Assembly: GCF_001412595.2 (NCBI RefSeq)
Contig: NZ_CP012640.2
Coordinates: 2,108,001-2,172,000 of the forward strand
Length of the DNA: 64,000 nucleotides
From: Massilia sp. WG5
Lineage (GTDB): Bacteria > Pseudomonadota > Gammaproteobacteria > Burkholderiales > Burkholderiaceae_D
Direction: 5' to 3'
The position numbers were made by a program, and so were the translations under genes. Shown here in pieces: positions 7,600-16,079 of this stretch. Positions within the stretch are counted from its first letter, which is position 1. Every line of letters begins with the position of its first letter. The notes under the pieces were generated by a model. It did not search any database and was not told the origin of the DNA. It saw only the letters and a list, made by a program, of their open reading frames with translations.

Positions 7600-9321
7600 T
7601 CAGGAACGGCGCCGGTACAGCCGGAACCGTTCCCGGTCGTCCGCAGGCCGGCTCCCTTCCCAGACCGCGGTCCAGATGCGGCTATCGGGTCGGTGCGGCG
7701 CCTGTCCGTGCGAATCTTCCAGCAGCAGCAGCCGGCAATCGGCATGCGGCTGCAGCTCCAGCCTTTGCGTGATCACGCCGTCGTAGTAGCGCAGCATCGC
7801 CCGTTCGCTCTCCCCGAGTCCATCGCTGGCAATGCACCCGGCGGATGCCGGCAGGGCCGAACGCAGCGACGCGAAGACTTCCCGATAGGACTTGACCTGG
7901 TCGGTCCATGGCATGAACAGCCCCGCCAACAGCAGCCAGCACAGCGCAAGTCCGACGGTCCAGGTCTGGAGCGCGGCCTGCCGCGGGCGGCGCCAGAACA
8001 TCAGCGCGATGCCCACGACGCTCGCGGCCGCACAGCATCCGAGGACGGCGGCGCGGATGCGCCGCTCGGGACTGGGCGGCAGCTGGGCGTACAAGGCGTC
8101 CAGCTGCAGCGGATTACCGGAAAACATGATGTAGCCCCACCCCAGCCACACCAGCAGCGCGATGCCGCCAAAGACCAGTTGCCCGGACCGGCGCCACACG
8201 CGCTCGGCGCGCGCTCCGGGCGACACGGCGCTGCGGGCGCCCAGCAAGGACAAGGGCAGCAACAGGGGCAGCGCATAGCCGCCGCGTGCGGAGGCGGAAA
8301 ACGTCAGCATCGCGAGCACCACGCCGCACATGAGCAGGCATGCCTGCATCAGCTCATCGGTACGCAGCGCCTGCCGTTCGCGCCACAGGGACAGCAGGGC
8401 CAGCGGCGCGGCCGGCAGCGTGATCCACCACAGATTGCGCAGCCAGAAGCCGCTGTCGTGGGGCGCGCCGAGTTCGGGCACCGAGAAGCCGACGAAACGC
8501 CCGATATTGTTCAGCCAGAACCAGTCGGAAAACAGCGCCGGTGAGCGGAGATACAGGGCCGCGGGCCAGATCAGCAGCCAGGGCAGCGCAGCAAGCAGCG
8601 CCGCCAGGACGGTATGCAGGTAGGCGCGCCGGCGCCAGCGGCTGAAGCACAAGGGCAGCAACAGCGCGGTCAGGCCGAACACGCCGGGCGCGATCAGGCC
8701 TTTCGCGAGAAAGCCGACCCCGACCCCGGTGCCGATTTCGCATCCGCTGCTCAGCGGCCGCTCGCGCCAGCGCGGCAGGCCGGCCAGGCCGATCGCCACC
8801 CCGGCCAGCAGGGCCAGGTCGGTCAGCATCTGGTGCGCATAGGCTTCCAGTCCAAGGCAGGCCAGCAGCACGAACACGGCGCTGCGCCCGAACTCGCGAT
8901 CGCGCCAGCGGCGGCCGCAACGGGCGAGCGCAGCGCAGGCCAGCAGCACGAACAGGCCACTCGCCAGGCGCGCGCCGTCGGCCAGCGGCAGGACCGGTGC
9001 AAGGCAGCGGGCGCTCGCCACCGCCGCCCAGTAATACAGCGGCGGCTTTTCCATGAAGGCTTCGCCCGCCATCGTCGGGACCACGAGGTCGCCCGTGTCC
9101 GACATGCTGCGGACGATCTCGGCGATATAGGTTTCGTCCTGTTTCCACGGGTCGTGGCCGGTCAATCCGGACAGCGCATACACGAGAACGAAGCAGACGA
9201 AGGCCCAGCCGCGGGCGGCGAGCATGAAGCCCCGCCCGCGGCCCGGCGGAGAGCCGGGCGCCGCCGGCATCCGCTGCCGCGGGGGGACATCGGGTGCGGC
9301 AAGGGTACGCGAGAAGTCCAT
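7600..9321 (-). CDS. ArnT-like (GT83/PMT family) membrane glycosyltransferase
   Basis: Polytopic inner-membrane glycosyltransferase using a polyprenyl-phosphate sugar donor, related to ArnT, which adds 4-amino-arabinose to lipid A. The first periplasmic loop holds the family signature: DPWKQDETYIAEIVRSM with the catalytic Asp, then GDLVVPTMAGEAFMEKPPLY. About ten or more hydrophobic helices follow, with a hydrophilic C-terminal domain. The start is uncertain: the ATG at 9321 coincides with the predicted transcription start of an operator-driven promoter (9330-9373) and would be leaderless; ATGs at 9270 and 9225 are alternatives, and 9225 starts right at the first helix. Its neighbours and its operator suggest envelope modification. 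The transferred sugar is unknown. Confidence 0.87.
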   Translation of the reverse strand: MDFSRTLAAPDVPPRQRMPAAPGSPPGRGRGFMLAARGWAFVCFVLVYALSGLTGHDPWKQDETYIAEIVRSMSDTGDLVVPTMAGEAFMEKPPLYYWAAVASARCLAPVLPLADGARLASGLFVLLACAALARCGRRWRDREFGRSAVFVLLACLGLEAYAHQMLTDLALLAGVAIGLAGLPRWRERPLSSGCEIGTGVGVGFLAKGLIAPGVFGLTALLLPLCFSRWRRRAYLHTVLAALLAALPWLLIWPAALYLRSPALFSDWFWLNNIGRFVGFSVPELGAPHDSGFWLRNLWWITLPAAPLALLSLWRERQALRTDELMQACLLMCGVVLAMLTFSASARGGYALPLLLPLSLLGARSAVSPGARAERVWRRSGQLVFGGIALLVWLGWGYIMFSGNPLQLDALYAQLPPSPERRIRAAVLGCCAAASVVGIALMFWRRPRQAALQTWTVGLALCWLLLAGLFMPWTDQVKSYREVFASLRSALPASAGCIASDGLGESERAMLRYYDGVITQRLELQPHADCRLLLLEDSHGQAPHRPDSRIWTAVWEGSRPADDRERFRLYRRRS

Positions 9322-9329
9322 ACGCAGCG

Positions 9330-9373
9330 ATTCTAGCCACGCATGCATCACGCAAGGATTACGGTCTAGTCAT
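9330..9373 (-). promoter_or_regulatory. Operator and -10 box upstream of the ArnT-like gene
   Basis: Site ATGACTAGACCGTAAT (minus strand, 9373-9358) matches the palindrome shared by five promoters here, with a perfect promoter-proximal half ACCGTAAT. Then come 22 bp and the -10-like TAGAAT (9335-9330). There is no -35 consensus. The operator centre falls near -42 from the expected start, as for a class II activator. Confidence 0.6.
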
Positions 9374-9390
9374 CTTTGAGATTCGTCACC

Positions 9391-9735
9391 TCAAGCGGCG
9401 CAAGACTTGCCGTGCGGGCCATGGAAGCCCTTGGCTTTCGCGTCCGCTTCCGGCATGTACTCCCCTTTCTTGGTCTTGCCGTAGTACTTGTCGCCCTCGC
9501 AGTGGTAGACCTTGCTGGAGGTGTTGACCCACACCTTGCCGGCGCCGCCGCCGGGCGCCTGCGCGGTTGCGGCGGGCGCGGCCTTGGCGGCCTTGCCGGT
9601 CTTGCCGGCGGGCGTCACGGTGCTCGAGGCCGCGCTGCCGGAGGCCGGGGCGACCGGATTCGGGACGGTGGTTTGCGCCAGCACCGAGCCGGCCATCAGC
9701 ATGCCCACGATGAGGGCGATCGACGTTTTCTTCAT
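9391..9735 (-). CDS. Small secreted protein with a Cys-containing C-terminal motif
   Basis: A 114-residue exported protein of unknown function. A Sec signal peptide ([20 protein letters not shown]) with an AQ cleavage site is followed by a low-complexity Ala/Pro/Thr linker (residues ~21-65). The compact C-terminal domain is [19 protein letters not shown] followed by [17 protein letters not shown] and a final GKSCAA. I recognise this YHCxGxxYYGxTKxGxYMxExxAxxxGF pattern from small secreted proteins of betaproteobacteria; its two cysteines could bridge or bind metal. SD AGGAGAAGT lies just before the ATG. It follows the DUF4337-like gene by 20 bp on the same strand, so it is probably the last gene of a three-gene unit. 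Confidence 0.8.
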
Positions 9736-9755
9736 TACACTTCTCCTTTAAAAAA

Positions 9756-10334
9756 TCATGACACCATAAAAGCGGAGGCCGCAGCACCGAGGCCCACCAG
9801 CGCCGCGCCCCCGACGCCCCACAGCAGCCAGCGGCGGCGCGTCAGCACGGTAATGGCCGCCAGCGCGACGGCGATCTGTACGCAACTGAGCGCCAGCGCC
9901 AGCCGCTCGTGCGGACGCAGCTTGGCATCGGACTCGGCCGCCAGCCTGCGCGACTCCGCCTCCAGCCGCACCGCCGTGCGCTGCACCTCGGCCCGTTCCC
10001 GGTCTTCCTTGGCGCGCTCCGCGACGAAGCGCTCCCGCACCGCCGGCTCGCCGGCCAGCGCCGCCGCCGCATCGGCGATGTGCGCCTTGGTCGACCTGGC
10101 CTGGTAATAGGCCCACTGGTCGCTGGCCTGGGTCTGCTTGAGGATGCTTTCGTTTTTCAGGAACATCGCTTCGGTCTGCGCGTTCCCGCTCTGGTAATTG
10201 ATGAGCGCCCCGACCGTCGACAGGATCGCCGTCATCAGGGCGACCTTTTGCGCCAGGCCGTCCTGGTCCCGTTCGGCGGCCTCTTCGACCGCATGCTCGT
10301 GCGGCGTGGGAATGTCGTAATCGTCGTCGTCCAT
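9756..10334 (-). CDS. DUF4337-like membrane protein
   Basis: A 192-residue protein starting at MDDDDYD (10334). The acidic N-terminus leads to one hydrophobic segment (residues ~30-46). A long charged helix follows, likely coiled coil (~50-140), containing QASDQWAYYQARSTKAHI, the signature I associate with DUF4337. Two C-terminal hydrophobic segments (ALSCVQIAVALAAITVL and the next) finish it. It starts 2 bp after the stop of the upstream channel-like gene, so the two are certainly co-translated. No biochemical role is known to me. The pairing suggests a membrane complex. Confidence 0.8.
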   Translation of the reverse strand: MDDDDYDIPTPHEHAVEEAAERDQDGLAQKVALMTAILSTVGALINYQSGNAQTEAMFLKNESILKQTQASDQWAYYQARSTKAHIADAAAALAGEPAVRERFVAERAKEDRERAEVQRTAVRLEAESRRLAAESDAKLRPHERLALALSCVQIAVALAAITVLTRRRWLLWGVGGAALVGLGAAASAFMVS

Positions 10335-10336
10335 GT

Positions 10337-11035
10337 CTATGCCAGTATGTTCACGGCGCGCGCCGCCACCAGGCCCACCGTCAGCAGCGAGGCGCTCGCC
10401 TCCACCATGAAAAGCACCTTGACGCGGACCGTGAGCGGCAGCGTGTCGGTTGGCGAAAAGGCGGTCGCGTTGGTGAACGACACGAACAGGTAATCGAAAA
10501 ATCCCGGCGTCCACTCCTCGCTTCCCGGCAGTCCGGAGCCCATCTGCGGGAACAGGAAGTCGGCAACCGGCTGTTTCACGAAGGCGCGCGTCGCCGGGCC
10601 GCCGCGGTCGATATTCCAGAACCATAGCGCGAACACGACGACGTTGGTGAACCAGATGTTCAGTGCGTCGATCAGCAGGCTTTGCCCGGTCGTTCCCCTG
10701 GCGCCGTACAGCAGGGCGTGGAGCACGACATACAGCGACTGGAAGTTGATCAGCGTGATGATGGCGGTCAGCACGATCGCCGCGCGCCGGATGATGCGCC
10801 GGTGGCGGTGGATGAGCTGCCAATGATGCTCGCTGGTGGCGCGGCGCATCTGGCTGTGGCTCCAGGCCGTGGCGACCGACAGCGGCGCCAGCAGCGCCAC
10901 CTCGAGCACGGAGGCCAGCCACCATGGGAAAACGGTCAGCTTATTGATCAGGATGGCGTTGAGCGCCGCCGTGACCAGGATTGCCCCGCGTGCGATCCAG
11001 AACTCGCGCATGTGCCGTTCGAGGTTTCTTCGCAT
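10337..11035 (-). CDS. Predicted ion-channel-like integral membrane protein
   Basis: About 232 residues with four to five hydrophobic helices and no assigned function. The last two helices flank FFDYLFVSFTNATAFSPTDT, which resembles the re-entrant pore loop between the helices of a two-TM channel; the helix after it is LTVGLVAARAVNIL. Channel function is inference from layout only. Start: GTG 11077, ATG 11035 and ATG 11011 are in frame. 11035 is used because a -10-like CATACT ends just before it, which would make the mRNA leaderless. It heads the unit with the DUF4337-like and small secreted genes. Confidence 0.7.
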   Translation of the reverse strand: MRRNLERHMREFWIARGAILVTAALNAILINKLTVFPWWLASVLEVALLAPLSVATAWSHSQMRRATSEHHWQLIHRHRRIIRRAAIVLTAIITLINFQSLYVVLHALLYGARGTTGQSLLIDALNIWFTNVVVFALWFWNIDRGGPATRAFVKQPVADFLFPQMGSGLPGSEEWTPGFFDYLFVSFTNATAFSPTDTLPLTVRVKVLFMVEASASLLTVGLVAARAVNILA

Positions 11036-11041
11036 GGGGCG

Positions 11042-11095
11042 AGTATGCCTCGTTTCCGGACGCGCACGAATCGCCACGGATTACCGTTTGGCAAT
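11042..11095 (-). promoter_or_regulatory. Operator and -10-like box upstream of the channel-like gene
   Basis: Minus-strand site ATTGCCAAACGGTAAT (11095-11080) belongs to the same operator family, with the weakest match of the five. The -10-like CATACT (11047-11042) is 32 bp away instead of 22-23, which is one helical turn further, so the same face of the helix is kept. Confidence 0.45.
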
Positions 11096-11101
11096 GTTCA
11101 G

Positions 11102-12469
11102 CTAGCGCTTGGGGAACACGAGGCTGACTTCCAGGCCCGGCCTGGCGTTGCGCAGCTGCACGCTGGCGCCATGCAGTTGCGCGATGGCGCTCACGCTCGA
11201 CAGCCCGAGGCCGTTGCCCGGCAGGTGGCGGCTCTGGTCGACCCGGTAGAAGCGTTCGCACAGGCGGCCGATGTCGGCTTCCGGCACGCCCGGGCCGTAG
11301 TCGCGCACCGACACCACGCTGTCCAGCTGGCCGCCGTGCACCCCGATGTCGACATGGGCGCCGGACTGTGCGTACTTGATCGCATTGTCGATCAGGCTGG
11401 CCAGCGCGGTCGCCAGCAGGTCGCGGTCGCCGTGCACGCTCAGCGTCTCCACGCCGGTGTAGCGCAGCACCATCCCGCGCTCCTCGGCGGCGGCCTCGTA
11501 CAGTTCGACCATGTCGCGCGCAATGGCGGCGATGTCCAGCAGCCCGAAGGAACGGGTGCGCACGCCGCTTTCGGCGGCCGCGATCTGCAGCAGCTTGTCG
11601 AACAGGCCGATCAGGTTGTCGATTTCCTCGATCGCCAGGCGGGCGTCGCCGACCAGCGCGCGTGGCTCGGCGGAGGCCTCGAGCGCCCGCTCCAGCCGGC
11701 TGCGCACCCGGCTCAGCGGCGTGCGCAGGTCGTGCGCGATCGCGTTCGACACGTGGCGCACCCCTTCCATCAAGGACTCGATGCGGTCGAGCATCTGGTT
11801 GATGTCGGCGCCGAGCCGCGCGAACTCGTCGTTGCCCTGCACCGCGATCCGGCTCGACAATTCGCCGGCTTCGATGCGCGCGGCCGTGCGCCGGATGTGC
11901 CCGACGCGCGCTTCGATCAGGCGCCGGAACAGCTGGGCGCCGGCGAAGGCCAGCAGCAGCGATACCGGCGAGCTGATCAGCAGCGCCCGCTCGATGACCT
12001 CGCGGATCGCATCGAGTTCGCTCAGGTCGCGCCCGACCACCAGCCGCCGGCCATCGCCGAGCGGGAGCGCCGTCAGGCGCACCGACACCAGCCCCTTGCT
12101 GCGATGGACTTCCTCGAAGACCAGCTCGCCCGGCGGCGGCAAGGGTCCCTGCAAGGCCGGGAGGTTGCCGATCAGGATCCGCCCGTCGCCGTCGACCAGG
12201 CCGACCAGTTCGGTGTCGCTGTCGATCCGGTCATGCAGCTGGAGGTCGATCTGGCGCACCAGGCCGACGTCCCCTTCGTCGCGCCAGGCGCGGAACAGGT
12301 TCTGCGCGATGGCCTCGATCTTGTTGTCCAGCGAACGCTCGAACACGCCGACCGTGCCGAAGTAGAAGATCGCCGACAGCGCCGCGACCGACAGCGCCAC
12401 CAGCAGGCCGTAGCCGACCGCCAGCCGCGCGGCGATCGAGCCGCGCAGGCTAAGACGCAGCCGGGCCAT
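11102..12469 (-). CDS. Sensor histidine kinase of an OmpR-type two-component system
   Basis: Membrane histidine kinase (455 aa), partner of the response regulator whose 3' end it overlaps by 20 bp. TM1 is at residues ~14-37, a periplasmic region of about 125 residues follows, then TM2 (~163-186) and HAMP. The HisKA box is NAIAHDLRTPLSRVRSRLE with the phospho-acceptor His. The ATPase domain has an N-box (SLIDNAIKYA), G1 (DYGPGVPEADI) and G2 (GNGLGLSSVSAI). All catalytic motifs are intact. The periplasmic part has no metal-binding cluster I can recognise, so the stimulus is unknown. Its gene is transcribed after the regulator from the operator-bearing promoter at 13175-13219. Confidence 0.93.
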   Translation of the reverse strand: MARLRLSLRGSIAARLAVGYGLLVALSVAALSAIFYFGTVGVFERSLDNKIEAIAQNLFRAWRDEGDVGLVRQIDLQLHDRIDSDTELVGLVDGDGRILIGNLPALQGPLPPPGELVFEEVHRSKGLVSVRLTALPLGDGRRLVVGRDLSELDAIREVIERALLISSPVSLLLAFAGAQLFRRLIEARVGHIRRTAARIEAGELSSRIAVQGNDEFARLGADINQMLDRIESLMEGVRHVSNAIAHDLRTPLSRVRSRLERALEASAEPRALVGDARLAIEEIDNLIGLFDKLLQIAAAESGVRTRSFGLLDIAAIARDMVELYEAAAEERGMVLRYTGVETLSVHGDRDLLATALASLIDNAIKYAQSGAHVDIGVHGGQLDSVVSVRDYGPGVPEADIGRLCERFYRVDQSRHLPGNGLGLSSVSAIAQLHGASVQLRNARPGLEVSLVFPKR

Positions 12470-13151
12470 AACCCGAAGGGCTCAGTACATAACCGGCGCC
12501 GCGCACCGTGTGGATGAGGGGTGGATCGAAATCCTTGTCGATCTTGCTGCGCAGGCGGCTGATCTGCACGTCGATCACATTGGTCTGCGGATCGAAATGG
12601 TATTCCCAGACGCCTTCCAGCAGCATGGTGCGGGTCACGATCTGGCCCTCGTGGCGCATCAGGTACTCCAGCAGGCGGAATTCGCGCGGCTGCAGGTTGA
12701 TCGCGACGCCGCGCCGCGTGGCCCGGCTGGTGCGCAGGTCGAGCTGCAGGTCGGCCACCTGCAGCTGGGTCACCTCGTGCGACCAGCTCGCCCGGCGCGT
12801 CAGGTTGGCGACCCGCGCCAGCAGTTCGGACATCACGAAGGGCTTGGCCAGGTAGTCGTCGCTGCCGGCGCGCAGGCCGCGCACGCGCTCGTCGACGCTG
12901 TTCAGGGCGCTCAGGATCAGCACCGGCGTCATGTCGCCGCGCGCGCGCATCTGCTCGAGGATGCCGACGCCGTCGACCTGGCCGGGCAGCATGCGGTCCA
13001 GCACCACGATATCCCAGCGCCGTTCGCGCAGCCGGGTGCTGCCGTCGCTGCCATTGTCGAGCGCAAGCACGGTGTAGCCGGCGGACTCGAGGCCGGCGCG
13101 CAGGTAGTCGCGGGTTTCGGCGTCGTCTTCGATGACGAGACAGTGTGGCAT
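12450..13151 (-). CDS. OmpR-family response regulator
   Basis: DNA-binding response regulator (233 aa): receiver domain with acidic pocket (IEDD), phospho-acceptor Asp in VVLDRMLPG and the lysine in YLAKPF, then a winged-helix domain ending in NVIDVQISRLRSKIDKD and HTVRGAGYVL. In overall pattern it resembles the CusR/CopR-like branch. It heads an operon with the kinase (20-bp overlap). The start ATG at 13151 has an A-rich AGAGG upstream. Its own promoter carries the palindrome also found at four neighbouring promoters, so it probably autoregulates and controls the flanking envelope genes (inference). Confidence 0.94.
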   Translation of the reverse strand: MPHCLVIEDDAETRDYLRAGLESAGYTVLALDNGSDGSTRLRERRWDIVVLDRMLPGQVDGVGILEQMRARGDMTPVLILSALNSVDERVRGLRAGSDDYLAKPFVMSELLARVANLTRRASWSHEVTQLQVADLQLDLRTSRATRRGVAINLQPREFRLLEYLMRHEGQIVTRTMLLEGVWEYHFDPQTNVIDVQISRLRSKIDKDFDPPLIHTVRGAGYVLSPSGYGPAAS

Positions 13152-13174
13152 GGCTGCTAAGAGGAAAAAAACTC

Positions 13175-13219
13175 AGTATAGGCGAGTGGGCGGGCCTTGG
13201 GGGATTACGGTTCCGTAAG
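13175..13219 (-). promoter_or_regulatory. Operator and -10 box of the two-component operon
   Basis: Minus-strand site CTTACGGAACCGTAAT (13219-13204), an almost perfect palindrome, is followed after 23 bp by TATACT (13180-13175). There is no -35 consensus. The operator centre is near -43. Confidence 0.65.
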
Positions 13220-13239
13220 CCGGGCGCCGCGGCCGCGGA

Positions 13240-14433
13240 TCACGCGCTCAAGCGCGCCATCACGTCGACCACGTGATCGATCTGGGCGCGGGTATGGCCT
13301 GCATTCATCATGAAGCGCAGGCGCGCCTGGCCCACCGGCACCGCCGGGAACTGGATCGCGTCGACGTGCACGCCCTCGGCCCGCAGCGCACGCGCGAAGT
13401 GCTGGCAGCGCGCGGCGTCGCCGATCAGGACCGGCACGATCGGCGTGGCGGTCGAGGTCAGCTCGTAGCCGAGCGGGCGCATGCGCTCGACGAAGTAGCG
13501 CTGGTTGTCCCACAGGCGCGCGCGGCGCTGCGGCTCTTCCTGCAGGATGTCGAGCGCGGCCAGCAGGGCGTTGGCCTGGTCCGGCGGCGGCGGGCAGGTG
13601 AAACCGTAGGCCGAACTGGTCAGGCGCAGCACCTCGGCCATCTCGCTGTCGAGGGCGACGAAGCCGCCGATCGCGCCGAGCGCCTTGCTCAGCGTACCCA
13701 TCTGCATGATGGTCGGGCTGTAGCAGCCGAAGTGCTCGGAGGTGCCGCCGCCGTTCGCGCCCAGCACGCCGGTTGCGTGGGCGTCGTCGATGTACAGGAT
13801 GGCGCCGTAGCGCTCGGCCAGCCGGGTCAGTTCCGGCAGCGGCGCGATCGTCCCTTCCATGCTGAACACGCCATCGCTGACGATGATCGGGCTGATCCCG
13901 TCGGCGGCCTTGAGCAGCGATTCCAGGTGGTCCATGTCGGCATGGCGGTAGGTATGGCGCTCGGCGCCCGACATCAGGATGCCTTCGCGGATGCTGATGT
14001 GGTTGTACTCGTCCGTGAAGTAGGCGTACTTGCGCCGCTTCTTGGGACGGAAGCCGTGCAGGCGCGCCAGCATGCCGGCCTTGGTCAGCGTCGACAGCAC
14101 GCCGATATTGGTCATGTAGCCGGTGACGAACAGCACCGCATCGGTCTTGTGCTTGAGGGCGCCCAAGCGACGCTCCAGCTCGCGGTACACCGGCAGGTCG
14201 CCGCCCAGCAGGCGCGACTCGCAGTTGCCGACGCCATAGCGGTCGAGGCCGGCCTTGGCGGCTTCGACCAGGCGCGGGTGATTCGCCAGCGCCAGGTAGT
14301 TATTCGTGCTGAAGGAGACGGCGGCCTCGCCGTTGACGCGGAACACCGGGTCCGGCAGCGTGTCGTGCACCGCCGATTCGTGATGGATGGCGTGGCTCTG
14401 CAGCCAGTCGGCGATATCGCTCAGGTCGTGCAT
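13240..14433 (-). CDS. Alpha-oxoamine synthase family PLP enzyme (BioF/Kbl/SPT-like)
   Basis: PLP-dependent enzyme of the alpha-oxoamine synthase family (397 aa), which condenses an amino acid with an acyl-CoA. Landmarks: STNNYLALANHP near the N-terminus, GVGNCESRLLGGD, the His of the cofactor stack in DEYNHISIREG, DDAHATGVLG (PLP Asp/His), and the Schiff-base lysine in MGTLSKALGAIGGF. The ATG at 14433 is used because homologues begin shortly before the core fold; its SD is weak and the 5' UTR would be about 100 nt. It is not next to bio genes, so a biotin role is unlikely. A sphingoid-type lipid, a CqsA-like signal or KBL activity are all possible. It carries the operator shared with the two-component system. 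Confidence 0.88.
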   Translation of the reverse strand: MHDLSDIADWLQSHAIHHESAVHDTLPDPVFRVNGEAAVSFSTNNYLALANHPRLVEAAKAGLDRYGVGNCESRLLGGDLPVYRELERRLGALKHKTDAVLFVTGYMTNIGVLSTLTKAGMLARLHGFRPKKRRKYAYFTDEYNHISIREGILMSGAERHTYRHADMDHLESLLKAADGISPIIVSDGVFSMEGTIAPLPELTRLAERYGAILYIDDAHATGVLGANGGGTSEHFGCYSPTIMQMGTLSKALGAIGGFVALDSEMAEVLRLTSSAYGFTCPPPPDQANALLAALDILQEEPQRRARLWDNQRYFVERMRPLGYELTSTATPIVPVLIGDAARCQHFARALRAEGVHVDAIQFPAVPVGQARLRFMMNAGHTRAQIDHVVDVMARLSA

Positions 14434-14543
14434 GGTGGTCGTGGTGCGGTCTTGGTTGGAAGTCGAATGGGACGAGGCGCAGTGCGGCGGCGCGGCGGCC
14501 GCGGCAGGGATCGGCCGGCGGCCGGCATGCGCGAATCGAGCGC

Positions 14544-14587
14544 AGTATAGGTGCGCCGTATCGGGAGGAAAATTACGGTTCGGTAAT
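14544..14587 (-). promoter_or_regulatory. Operator and -10 box of the oxoamine synthase gene
   Basis: Minus-strand site ATTACCGAACCGTAAT (14587-14572) is the consensus operator, followed after 22 bp by TATACT (14549-14544). There is no -35 box. The operator centre is near -42. The 323-bp gap between the two divergent genes (14434-14756) contains this promoter, the porin promoter, and otherwise nothing recognisable. Confidence 0.68.
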
Positions 14588-14638
14588 GTCGATGACAGCA
14601 AGACAATCTTTACCCCGAACTGTTGTAAGGACGGCTCA

Positions 14639-14682
14639 ATTACCGAATCGTAATGACATGCTGCGCCGCAGCAAACTATCAT
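14639..14682 (+). promoter_or_regulatory. Operator and -10 box of the porin gene
   Basis: Plus-strand site ATTACCGAATCGTAAT (14639-14654), then 22 bp, then TATCAT (14677-14682, five of six matches to the sigma-70 -10 box). There is no -35 consensus. It faces the porin gene, with a leader of about 68 nt. Confidence 0.68.
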
Positions 14683-14756: not shown

Positions 14757-16079
14757 ATGTGTTTCGATCAATTCAAGCAGGCTGCGCCGTGGCTGCTGCT
14801 GGCCGCACTGGCGCCCGCCACGGTGCGCGCCGATGAACTGCCGCAGGAAGAAACCTGGAACGCCCACGCCCAGGCCACCTATGTCTGGCAGCTCAAGCCA
14901 TCCTTCCCGGCCTCCTACAGCGGGCCGGCCAGCCTGCTGCCGCAGCGCGAGACCGGCTATTCCTTCAGCGCCACCGCCGCCTTCGGCCTGCGTCCGTGGG
15001 CCGGGGCCGAGCTCTACCTCGATCCGGAACTGGTGCAGGGCAAGGCGTTCTCGAACCTGCACGGCCTGGGCGGCATGAGCAATGGCGAGCAGCAGAAGAC
15101 CAGCGGGCCGAATCCGACCCTGTACCGCGCGCGCCTGTTCCTGCGCCAGACCTGGGACCTGGGCGGCGAGCGCCAGGCGGTGGCATCGGACCTGAACCAG
15201 CTGGCCGGCGCGGTGTCCAGGCGCCGTCTCGTGCTCACCGCCGGCAACCTGGCCGTCAGCGACATCTTCGACAACAACGCCTATGCCCACGATGCCCGCA
15301 GCCAGTTCCTGAACTGGGCGCTGCTGGCGCACGGGGCCTGGGATTTCGCGGCCGACGCGCGCGGCTACAGCTGGGGCGCGGCGCTGGAATACATCGACGG
15401 CCCCTGGGCGCTGCGCGGCGGGCGCTTCCTGGTGCCGGCCGAGTCGAACGGCCTGGCGCTCGACAAGCGCATCTTCCGCCACTACGGCGACCAGCTCGAA
15501 CTCGAACGCGCCACCGCCTGGCTGGGCCAGCCCGGCAAGCTGCGCCTGCTGGTGTTCCGCGACCGCGCGCGCATGGGGGGATTTGGCGACGCGCTGGCGG
15601 CGGCCGGCGGCGGCGTGCCGGACGTGGCGCAGGTGCGCCGCGAACGCAGCAAGCTCGGCGCCGGCCTCAATGCCGAACAGGCGCTCGGCGAGGACGCCGG
15701 CCTGTTCGTGCGCGCCAGCTGGAACGACGGGAAGTCGGAAACCTATGCCTTCGCCGAGATCGAGCGCTCGCTGTCGGCAGGGCTTACGCTGCAGGGCTCG
15801 GCGTGGGGACGCGCCGGCGACACGCTCGGCCTGGCCCTGGTGCGGAATAGCCTGTCGGCGGCGCACCGCGCCTACCTGGCCGCCGGCGGCGTCGGCGCCT
15901 TCATCGGCGACGGCCGCCTGGACTACCGGCCGGAATCGATCGCCGAGGCGTATTACCGGATTCCGCTGGCCGCGGGCGCCGCGCTGTCGCTGGACTTCCA
16001 GCACATCGCCAACCCCGGCTACAACCGGGCGCGCGGGCCGGTCGACGTCGGCTCGCTGCGCCTGCATATCGCCTACTGA
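14757..16079 (+). CDS. Putative OprB-like carbohydrate-selective porin
   Basis: Outer-membrane beta-barrel protein of the OprB type (440 aa). The ATG at 14757 is chosen because GGAG lies 6 bp upstream and MCFDQFKQAAPWLLLAALAP starts a Sec signal peptide cleaved after VRA. Upstream in-frame ATGs lack these. The mature chain has alternating beta-strand patterns, an early LYLDPELVQGKAFSNLHGLG region and a late FQHIANPGYNRARGPVDVGS region, and ends in a terminal aromatic (IAY) for barrel insertion. The OprB assignment rests on this pattern. The substrate is unknown. It is divergent from the oxoamine synthase, and both promoters carry the same operator. Confidence 0.84.
   Translation: MCFDQFKQAAPWLLLAALAPATVRADELPQEETWNAHAQATYVWQLKPSFPASYSGPASLLPQRETGYSFSATAAFGLRPWAGAELYLDPELVQGKAFSNLHGLGGMSNGEQQKTSGPNPTLYRARLFLRQTWDLGGERQAVASDLNQLAGAVSRRRLVLTAGNLAVSDIFDNNAYAHDARSQFLNWALLAHGAWDFAADARGYSWGAALEYIDGPWALRGGRFLVPAESNGLALDKRIFRHYGDQLELERATAWLGQPGKLRLLVFRDRARMGGFGDALAAAGGGVPDVAQVRRERSKLGAGLNAEQALGEDAGLFVRASWNDGKSETYAFAEIERSLSAGLTLQGSAWGRAGDTLGLALVRNSLSAAHRAYLAAGGVGAFIGDGRLDYRPESIAEAYYRIPLAAGAALSLDFQHIANPGYNRARGPVDVGSLRLHIAY

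Follow-up and report, generated by a model that had tools for sequence, protein, structure and literature searches.

Introduction

The silver-resistance response regulator (RR) AgrR of Cupriavidus metallidurans is associated with a 16-bp inverted repeat of consensus ATKACANNNNTGTMAT that is centered at −43.5 in AgrR's own promoter. AgrR is described as a type II activator of promoters with a good −10 element and no or a poor −35 element, with positive autoregulation, a footprinted box, and an ompC-like promoter among the targets (PMC7380067). In two other reports, the box of CusR and HprR of Escherichia coli is given as CATTACAAAATTGTAATG (PMC9302797), and CusR, CopR, and CzcR of Pseudomonas are said to have one palindrome in common, located between divergent promoters (PMC11195947). 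Here, we analyze a locus of Massilia sp. WG5 that is built around the genes of an OmpR-type RR and a sensor histidine kinase and lies in a stretch of 64,000 nucleotides (contig NZ_CP012640.2, positions 2,108,001–2,172,000; referred to as the window, with positions counted from its first letter). An initial annotation, made from the letters alone, had proposed that five promoters around these genes carry the same 16-bp palindrome and form a regulon. Comparison with related genomes makes it probable, at roughly 0.85, that these boxes are operators of the RR, which would raise expression of its own operon and of a set of envelope and export genes.

Results

Five boxes around the response regulator gene

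All five 16-mers are present in the window (Table 1), and they are real sites in excess of what chance would provide. When only the arms were searched for (ATTAC-N6-GTAAT, at most one mismatch), the 6.2-Mb genome contained 46 matching places, against 30 for a backwards control. For the 5.35-kb stretch that holds the boxes, this search gives an expectation of about 0.04, and five were found, which by our own arithmetic has a Poisson probability of about 1e-9 for a stretch that was itself chosen because of its boxes. The 16-mer consensus of the initial annotation, allowing three mismatches, recovered four of the five boxes in the window versus 0.08 expected, a test that is circular because the consensus was derived from these same sites; the box of the ArnT-like gene has four mismatches to this consensus and therefore falls outside the scan. 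Run over the whole genome, the same search gave 21 matches and the backwards control 11. Using the strict composite TTAC-N6-GTAAT followed after 21–24 bp by TATNNT, three of the four matches in this genome are located inside the window.

The channel site departs from the common spacing, as had been noted before (32 bp vs 22–23 bp). The best −35 matches amount to 2/6 for the ArnT-like, channel, and RR promoters, 3/6 for the synthase promoter, and 5/6 for the porin promoter, which has a near −35 element, ATGACA, 18 bp upstream. The earlier statement that no promoter has a −35 element is thus contradicted by the porin promoter. Use of the proposed −10 elements would make the ArnT-like and channel transcripts near-leaderless, with starts a few bases from the ATG: the ArnT-like start codon is at 9321, which would leave a very short leader, and the channel-like gene would start at ATG 11035 if its proposed −10 element holds.

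Other box-like sites were seen on contig 1 of this genome. Two more composites are found at 1890297 (L339 2326) and 3803043 (L338 2543), one with TATGAT upstream of an open reading frame (ORF) that has a sub-threshold Sel1 match, the other with TACACT in front of a 308-residue ORF without a family; both may be members or chance matches. A box-like pair at 2707253 and 2710747 (L149 7254 and 10748) is separated by 3.5 kb and has partly similar downstream sequence. The second site lies 375 bp upstream of the gene of a 312-residue secreted-looking protein, a 70%-identical homolog of which occurs near the RR locus of genome G145 (L279). The pair was rejected as part of the regulon because there is no −10 element at 21–23 bp.

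Table 1. Boxes and genes of the locus, with positions in the window
Feature	Position	Strand	Details
Box of the ArnT-like gene, ATGACTAGACCGTAAT	9358-9373	-	-10 TAGAAT at 9330-9335, 22-bp spacer
Box of the channel/DUF4337 pair, ATTGCCAAACGGTAAT	11080-11095	-	CATACT at 11042-11047, 32-bp spacer; weakest among the five
Box of the RR-kinase operon, CTTACGGAACCGTAAT	13204-13219	-	-10 TATACT at 13175-13180, 23-bp spacer
Box of the synthase gene, ATTACCGAACCGTAAT	14572-14587	-	-10 TATACT at 14544-14549, 22-bp spacer
Box of the porin gene, ATTACCGAATCGTAAT	14639-14654	+	-10 TATCAT at 14677-14682, 22-bp spacer
ArnT-like membrane glycosyltransferase	7600-9321	-	PMT_2 25.1 bits (just under the cut-off of 26.1); PRK13279 ArnT 76.5 of 567 bits
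Small secreted-looking protein	9391-9735	-	Weak 'sunset' domain, below cut-off
DUF4337 protein	9756-10334	-	PF14235
Channel-like membrane protein	10337-11077	-	ORF
Sensor histidine kinase	11102-12469	-	Best NCBIfam match TIGR01386, 167.2 bits, below the cut-off of 292.55
OmpR-type RR, proposed activator	12450-13151	-	PF00072 and PF00486
Alpha-oxoamine synthase (BioF/Kbl/serine palmitoyltransferase superfamily)	13240-14433	-	No family cut-off passed
OprB-family porin	14757-16079	+	PF04966

Co-occurrence of the box and the regulator in the genus

An ortholog of the RR (at least 68% identity) is present in 23 of 62 genomes of the genus; 13 further genomes have, at the same E-value threshold, only a homolog of 53–54% identity. 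The strict composite occurs in 22 of the 62 genomes, all of which belong to the 23 with the RR, and in none of the 39 that lack it, and the backwards control of the composite gave one match in the 62 genomes. The composite is missing from just one RR-carrying genome, G052, an assembly of 87% completeness in which the synthase gene starts 66 bp into a contig. The association has a Fisher p of 7e-16, a figure to be read in light of the relatedness of the genomes, which means that the counts are not independent.

Structure and spacing of the box in related genomes

The anatomy of the box was assessed using the RR loci of the 23 genomes and two further stretches, which provided 49 composites from 22 genomes. 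These sites had been preselected for at most one mismatch in the ten arm bases and for a spacer of 21–23 bp, and the conservation of the arms thus follows from the selection. The inner bases and the peak of a spacer histogram taken over 8–40 bp lie outside these selection criteria. The histogram, comprising 62 −10-like matches, has 40 at 22 bp, eight at 21 bp, one at 23 bp, and 13 elsewhere. With a 22-bp spacer, the center of the box would be at −42.5 if transcription starts 7 bp past the −10 element, so that the spacer peak in the relatives supports a probable center near −42, the class II activator position assigned previously. Matches of at least 4/6 to the −35 element were found for five of the 49 composites.

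Within the box, 43 of the 49 sites have A at position 9, 46 have A or G at position 8, and 45 have C or T at position 10. Bases vary at position 6 (C 27, T 11, G 9, and A 2) and at position 11 (C 28, T 11, and G 10). The inner CGAACC of the proposed consensus is not conserved in the relatives, and the literal 16-mer was ruled out as a consensus because the inner six bases vary. Binding to a direct repeat was rejected as well, given the dyad symmetry of what is conserved. Chance may account for a few of the 49 sites, for example, the TACGAT pair of G002 and G015 and the TAATAT case of G046. An element consisting of TTACAACTCTGTTAAT, 22 bp, and TATAAT, common to the RR-carrying genomes G009, G022, G047, and G051, was left out because it has no GTAA arm. 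Genome G056, which lacks the RR, contains seven identical copies of TTACCGATCGGTAAA...TATCGT on seven contigs (L324), probably a repeated element.

The placement of the box bears on the sign of regulation, one alternative being that the RR, bound to the boxes, is a repressor, or an activator at some promoters and a repressor at others, for instance lowering the porin. The near −35 element ATGACA of the porin promoter is in line with this, and CzcR of P. aeruginosa represses a porin according to the AgrR report (PMC7380067). Repression is nevertheless improbable, because a center near −42, a spacing of 21–22 bp, and a poor −35 element at most promoters all fit activation.

Genes preceded by the box

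The ORFs downstream of boxes in the relatives were partly chosen by the GC content at third codon positions (GC3), which is a heuristic. Of 21 assessable genomes, the window included, 18 have a box with a −10 element that points at the RR gene or at a synthase–RR operon; G006 and G052 could not be assessed because the operon is cut by contig ends. An ortholog of the synthase gene is present in 14 of the 62 genomes, all of which have the RR, and the box and −10 element are kept in front of all 12 assessable orthologs, again including the window. A distance of 9–10 kb separates the boxed synthase gene from the RR gene in G012 and G057. OprB-like porin genes that adjoin the RR or synthase gene have a box in nine of ten loci, this one included, G057 being the exception. 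The synthase itself has BioF/Kbl-type enzymes as its nearest solved chains, followed by 2-amino-3-ketobutyrate CoA ligase and serine palmitoyltransferase.

The relatives have additional boxed genes. In G012, a boxed operon encodes a small protein, an outer-membrane efflux protein, a resistance–nodulation–division (RND) adaptor, and a CusA/CzcA-family pump that scores 977.8 bits for TIGR00914 (cut-off 701.45); no efflux operon adjoins the RR gene in the window. By eye only, ORFs like this efflux set were recognized in G057, G002, and G074, and an ORF for the efflux protein alone in G015. Upstream of efflux operons, perfect palindromes occur in pairs with starts 17 bp apart (L136 8938/8955, L138 11207/11224, L139 7655/7672, and L273 7013/7030), a distance that suggests tandem dimers. 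Boxes also precede genes for an ATP-binding cassette (ABC) permease and ATPase, which in G047 are followed by a DUF4337 gene, with a similar set seen by eye in G072, and a DUF535 gene in G074.

The ArnT-like gene provides a case away from the RR locus. Orthologs are found in seven of the 62 genomes, all with the RR. Those of the six relatives lie on a different contig from the RR gene or, in G022, at a distance of about 2.6 Mb from it. All six have an upstream box of the form TNAC-N6-GTAAC, which in five is followed at exactly 22 bp by TATCAT or TAACAT; the box of G051 has no −10 element. Counting the window, the box is kept in seven of seven and the −10 element at 22 bp in six of seven. The box of G022 is separated from the ArnT-like gene by an ORF that has an AMP-binding match. 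Retention of the box at this distance argues for action in trans. In the same six relatives, a divergent gene similar to that of the small secreted-looking protein adjoins the ArnT-like gene (ORFs of L332–L337, compared by eye).

Regulator, kinase, and wider family

The best of the 84 NCBIfam matches of the RR is TIGR01387 (CztR/SilR/CopR), at 234.9 bits, which does not reach the cut-off of 279.2. Three other genes of this genome (L121, L122, and L123) do score above this cut-off. In a 42-row tree that took in CusR and HprR and did not include AgrR, the RR belongs to a 12-row clade (100/97), apart from an eight-row clade (98/96) that contains CusR, HprR, and the three paralogs. The recognition helix of the RR reads NVIDVQISRLR, and QIS or QVS is found at this place in 23 of 23 orthologs. 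An acidic run in the sensor part of the kinase, D80, D83, D85, and E87, is invariant in all 13 aligned sequences, and visual inspection of this part revealed no Cys/Met cluster. From the acidic run and the target genes, one might guess that the kinase responds to a cation or a cationic peptide.

TTAC-N6-GTAA palindromes are also found near L121, L122, and L123, at a distance of 1.3 kb in one case and within 150 bp upstream in the other two, and could indicate cross-talk with the regulon. They raise the alternative that the boxes belong to these CusR/CopR-type regulators instead of the local RR, given that the arms are identical and that three such regulators use one palindrome in Pseudomonas (PMC11195947). 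The distribution of the composite makes this very unlikely: it tracks the ortholog of the local RR (22/23 vs 0/39 genomes), and the AgrR-type inner pair is rare (A6 in 2 and T11 in 11 of the 49 sites). The stretches of the six next-best RR homologs of this genome (L125–L130) contain no TTAC-N6-GTAA.

Another genus of the family has a related arrangement at 17 of 24 RR loci (L210–L233), where ATTACCAACTTGTAAC (in one case with ATTGC) is followed by TATCAT at 21–22 bp. These boxes are situated about 1.4 kb after the RR gene, where the kinase gene should end; of the remaining loci, one has a box without a −10 element and six have no box in the stretch examined. The gene that follows a box of the ATTACCAACTTGTAAC type encodes a DUF535 protein in L277, the only locus where the next gene was identified. 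A search for a different upstream box in front of RRs of 62–67% identity from other genera gave nothing clear, and TTAC-N6-GTAA was present within 350 bp upstream of four of 80 more distant RRs.

Discussion

Taken together, the comparative data support the earlier proposal of a regulon with an autoregulated RR and envelope targets and leave the membership of the channel promoter doubtful. Among orthologous genes, the synthase, porin, and ArnT-like boxes are kept; that of the channel-like gene is not kept with a −10 element. The kinase would sense an envelope cue, and the RR would then act on the boxes, presumably as a dimer, to raise its own operon together with the alpha-oxoamine synthase, the OprB-like porin, and the ArnT-like transferase. 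In relatives, CusA/CzcA-type efflux, an ABC transporter, MipA, and DUF535 would be added to these targets.

Several observations weigh against this interpretation. The counts come from related genomes, and most sites adjoin the RR gene itself. Near the RR genes of G002, G015, and G074, the box points away from the RR. A composite with one mismatch occurs in 44 of the 62 genomes; it was dropped as a regulon finder because it is too loose, with matches in 22 of the 39 genomes that have no RR ortholog. When the last T is removed, the composite is found with zero mismatches in G011 and G075, which also lack the RR, and in the wider family 39 of 294 genomes contain the strict composite, compared with about 50 for the backwards control; looser or wider scans are thus near background. 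RRs of other genera that have the same recognition-helix motif mostly have no box at their own promoter. Nor do most of the RRs of the genus with loci L210–L233, which argues against simple autoregulation across the family. For the channel-like gene, the orthologs of six relatives include none with a −10 element at 21–23 bp, and two of these six genomes, G023 and G076, have no RR ortholog.

A further alternative is that only the boxes around the RR gene function and that those of the ArnT-like and channel-like genes are chance matches. The 32-bp gap of the channel site and the lack of a conserved −10 element at the channel orthologs agree with this possibility. A perfect palindrome is present at the channel ortholog of G052 and one with two mismatches at that of G022; the other four have none within 400 bp. 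In favor of the site, the ATTGC box of the window leads the channel–DUF4337 pair, and an element consisting of TTTGC...GTAAT, 22 bp, and TATACT is found about 0.5 kb upstream of a DUF4337/MipA pair in G054. A MipA gene of G041 is preceded by this element at about the same distance, and both G047 and G054 have a DUF4337 gene downstream of a box. The channel-like protein itself has no match in Pfam or NCBIfam. Chance may indeed be the right explanation for the channel site alone. Extended to both genes, it is quite improbable, because the ArnT-like gene has the box in six of six relatives away from the RR, five with a −10 element at 22 bp, while about 8% of random 460-bp stretches contain a box at up to two mismatches.

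A broader and more speculative reading, which we regard as possible but on balance doubtful, is that the RR represents a sister clade of CusR/HprR whose specificity changed through the recognition helix (AVK/AIR to QIS/QVS), keeping the ATTAC arms with a different inner pair, and that it was recruited to envelope defense. The synthase, a highly conserved target (88–92% identity), would then make a novel amino-ketone or sphingoid-like envelope lipid, alongside the porin, transferase, and efflux genes. The operator reading preferred here describes a small regulon that comes with ready predictions, in that box, spacing, and targets are laid out for 23 genomes. It also ties uncharacterized genes, those of the alpha-oxoamine synthase, DUF4337, DUF535, MipA, and porin proteins, to one regulator. 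It would offer a natural case of an RR family that retains the arms of its box while the inner contacts change.

Relation to known systems

The initial annotation knew of no published box of this exact form. The literature searched contained neither the exact 16-mer nor anything on an RR regulon, binding site, or palindrome of such kind in Massilia. Nevertheless, the novelty claim does not hold for the kind of box. The present sites resemble the AgrR box (PMC7380067) in their ATTAC/GTAAT arms, 16-bp dyad, good −10 and weak −35 elements, and position, with a probable center at −42.5 here versus −43.5, and they have the arms in common with the CusR/HprR box CATTACAAAATTGTAATG (PMC9302797). Both this type of operator and where it is placed are therefore already known. 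They differ from AgrR in the inner bases, A6 and T11 of ATKACANNNNTGTMAT being infrequent here, and in the targets. The RR is 45% identical to CusR and 40% identical to HprR, is placed in a separate clade, and has QISRLR in the helix where CusR has NAIDVAVKRLR and HprR NTVDVAIRRLR; this change in the helix may be linked to the change in the box. As regards the Pseudomonas CusR, CopR, and CzcR systems, a boxed CusA/CzcA-family efflux operon is seen in relative G012 and none next to the RR gene in the window. What is new compared with these systems seems to be the inner pair of the box, a version apparently not described before, together with the recognition helix and clade of the RR and the set of genes in the regulon.

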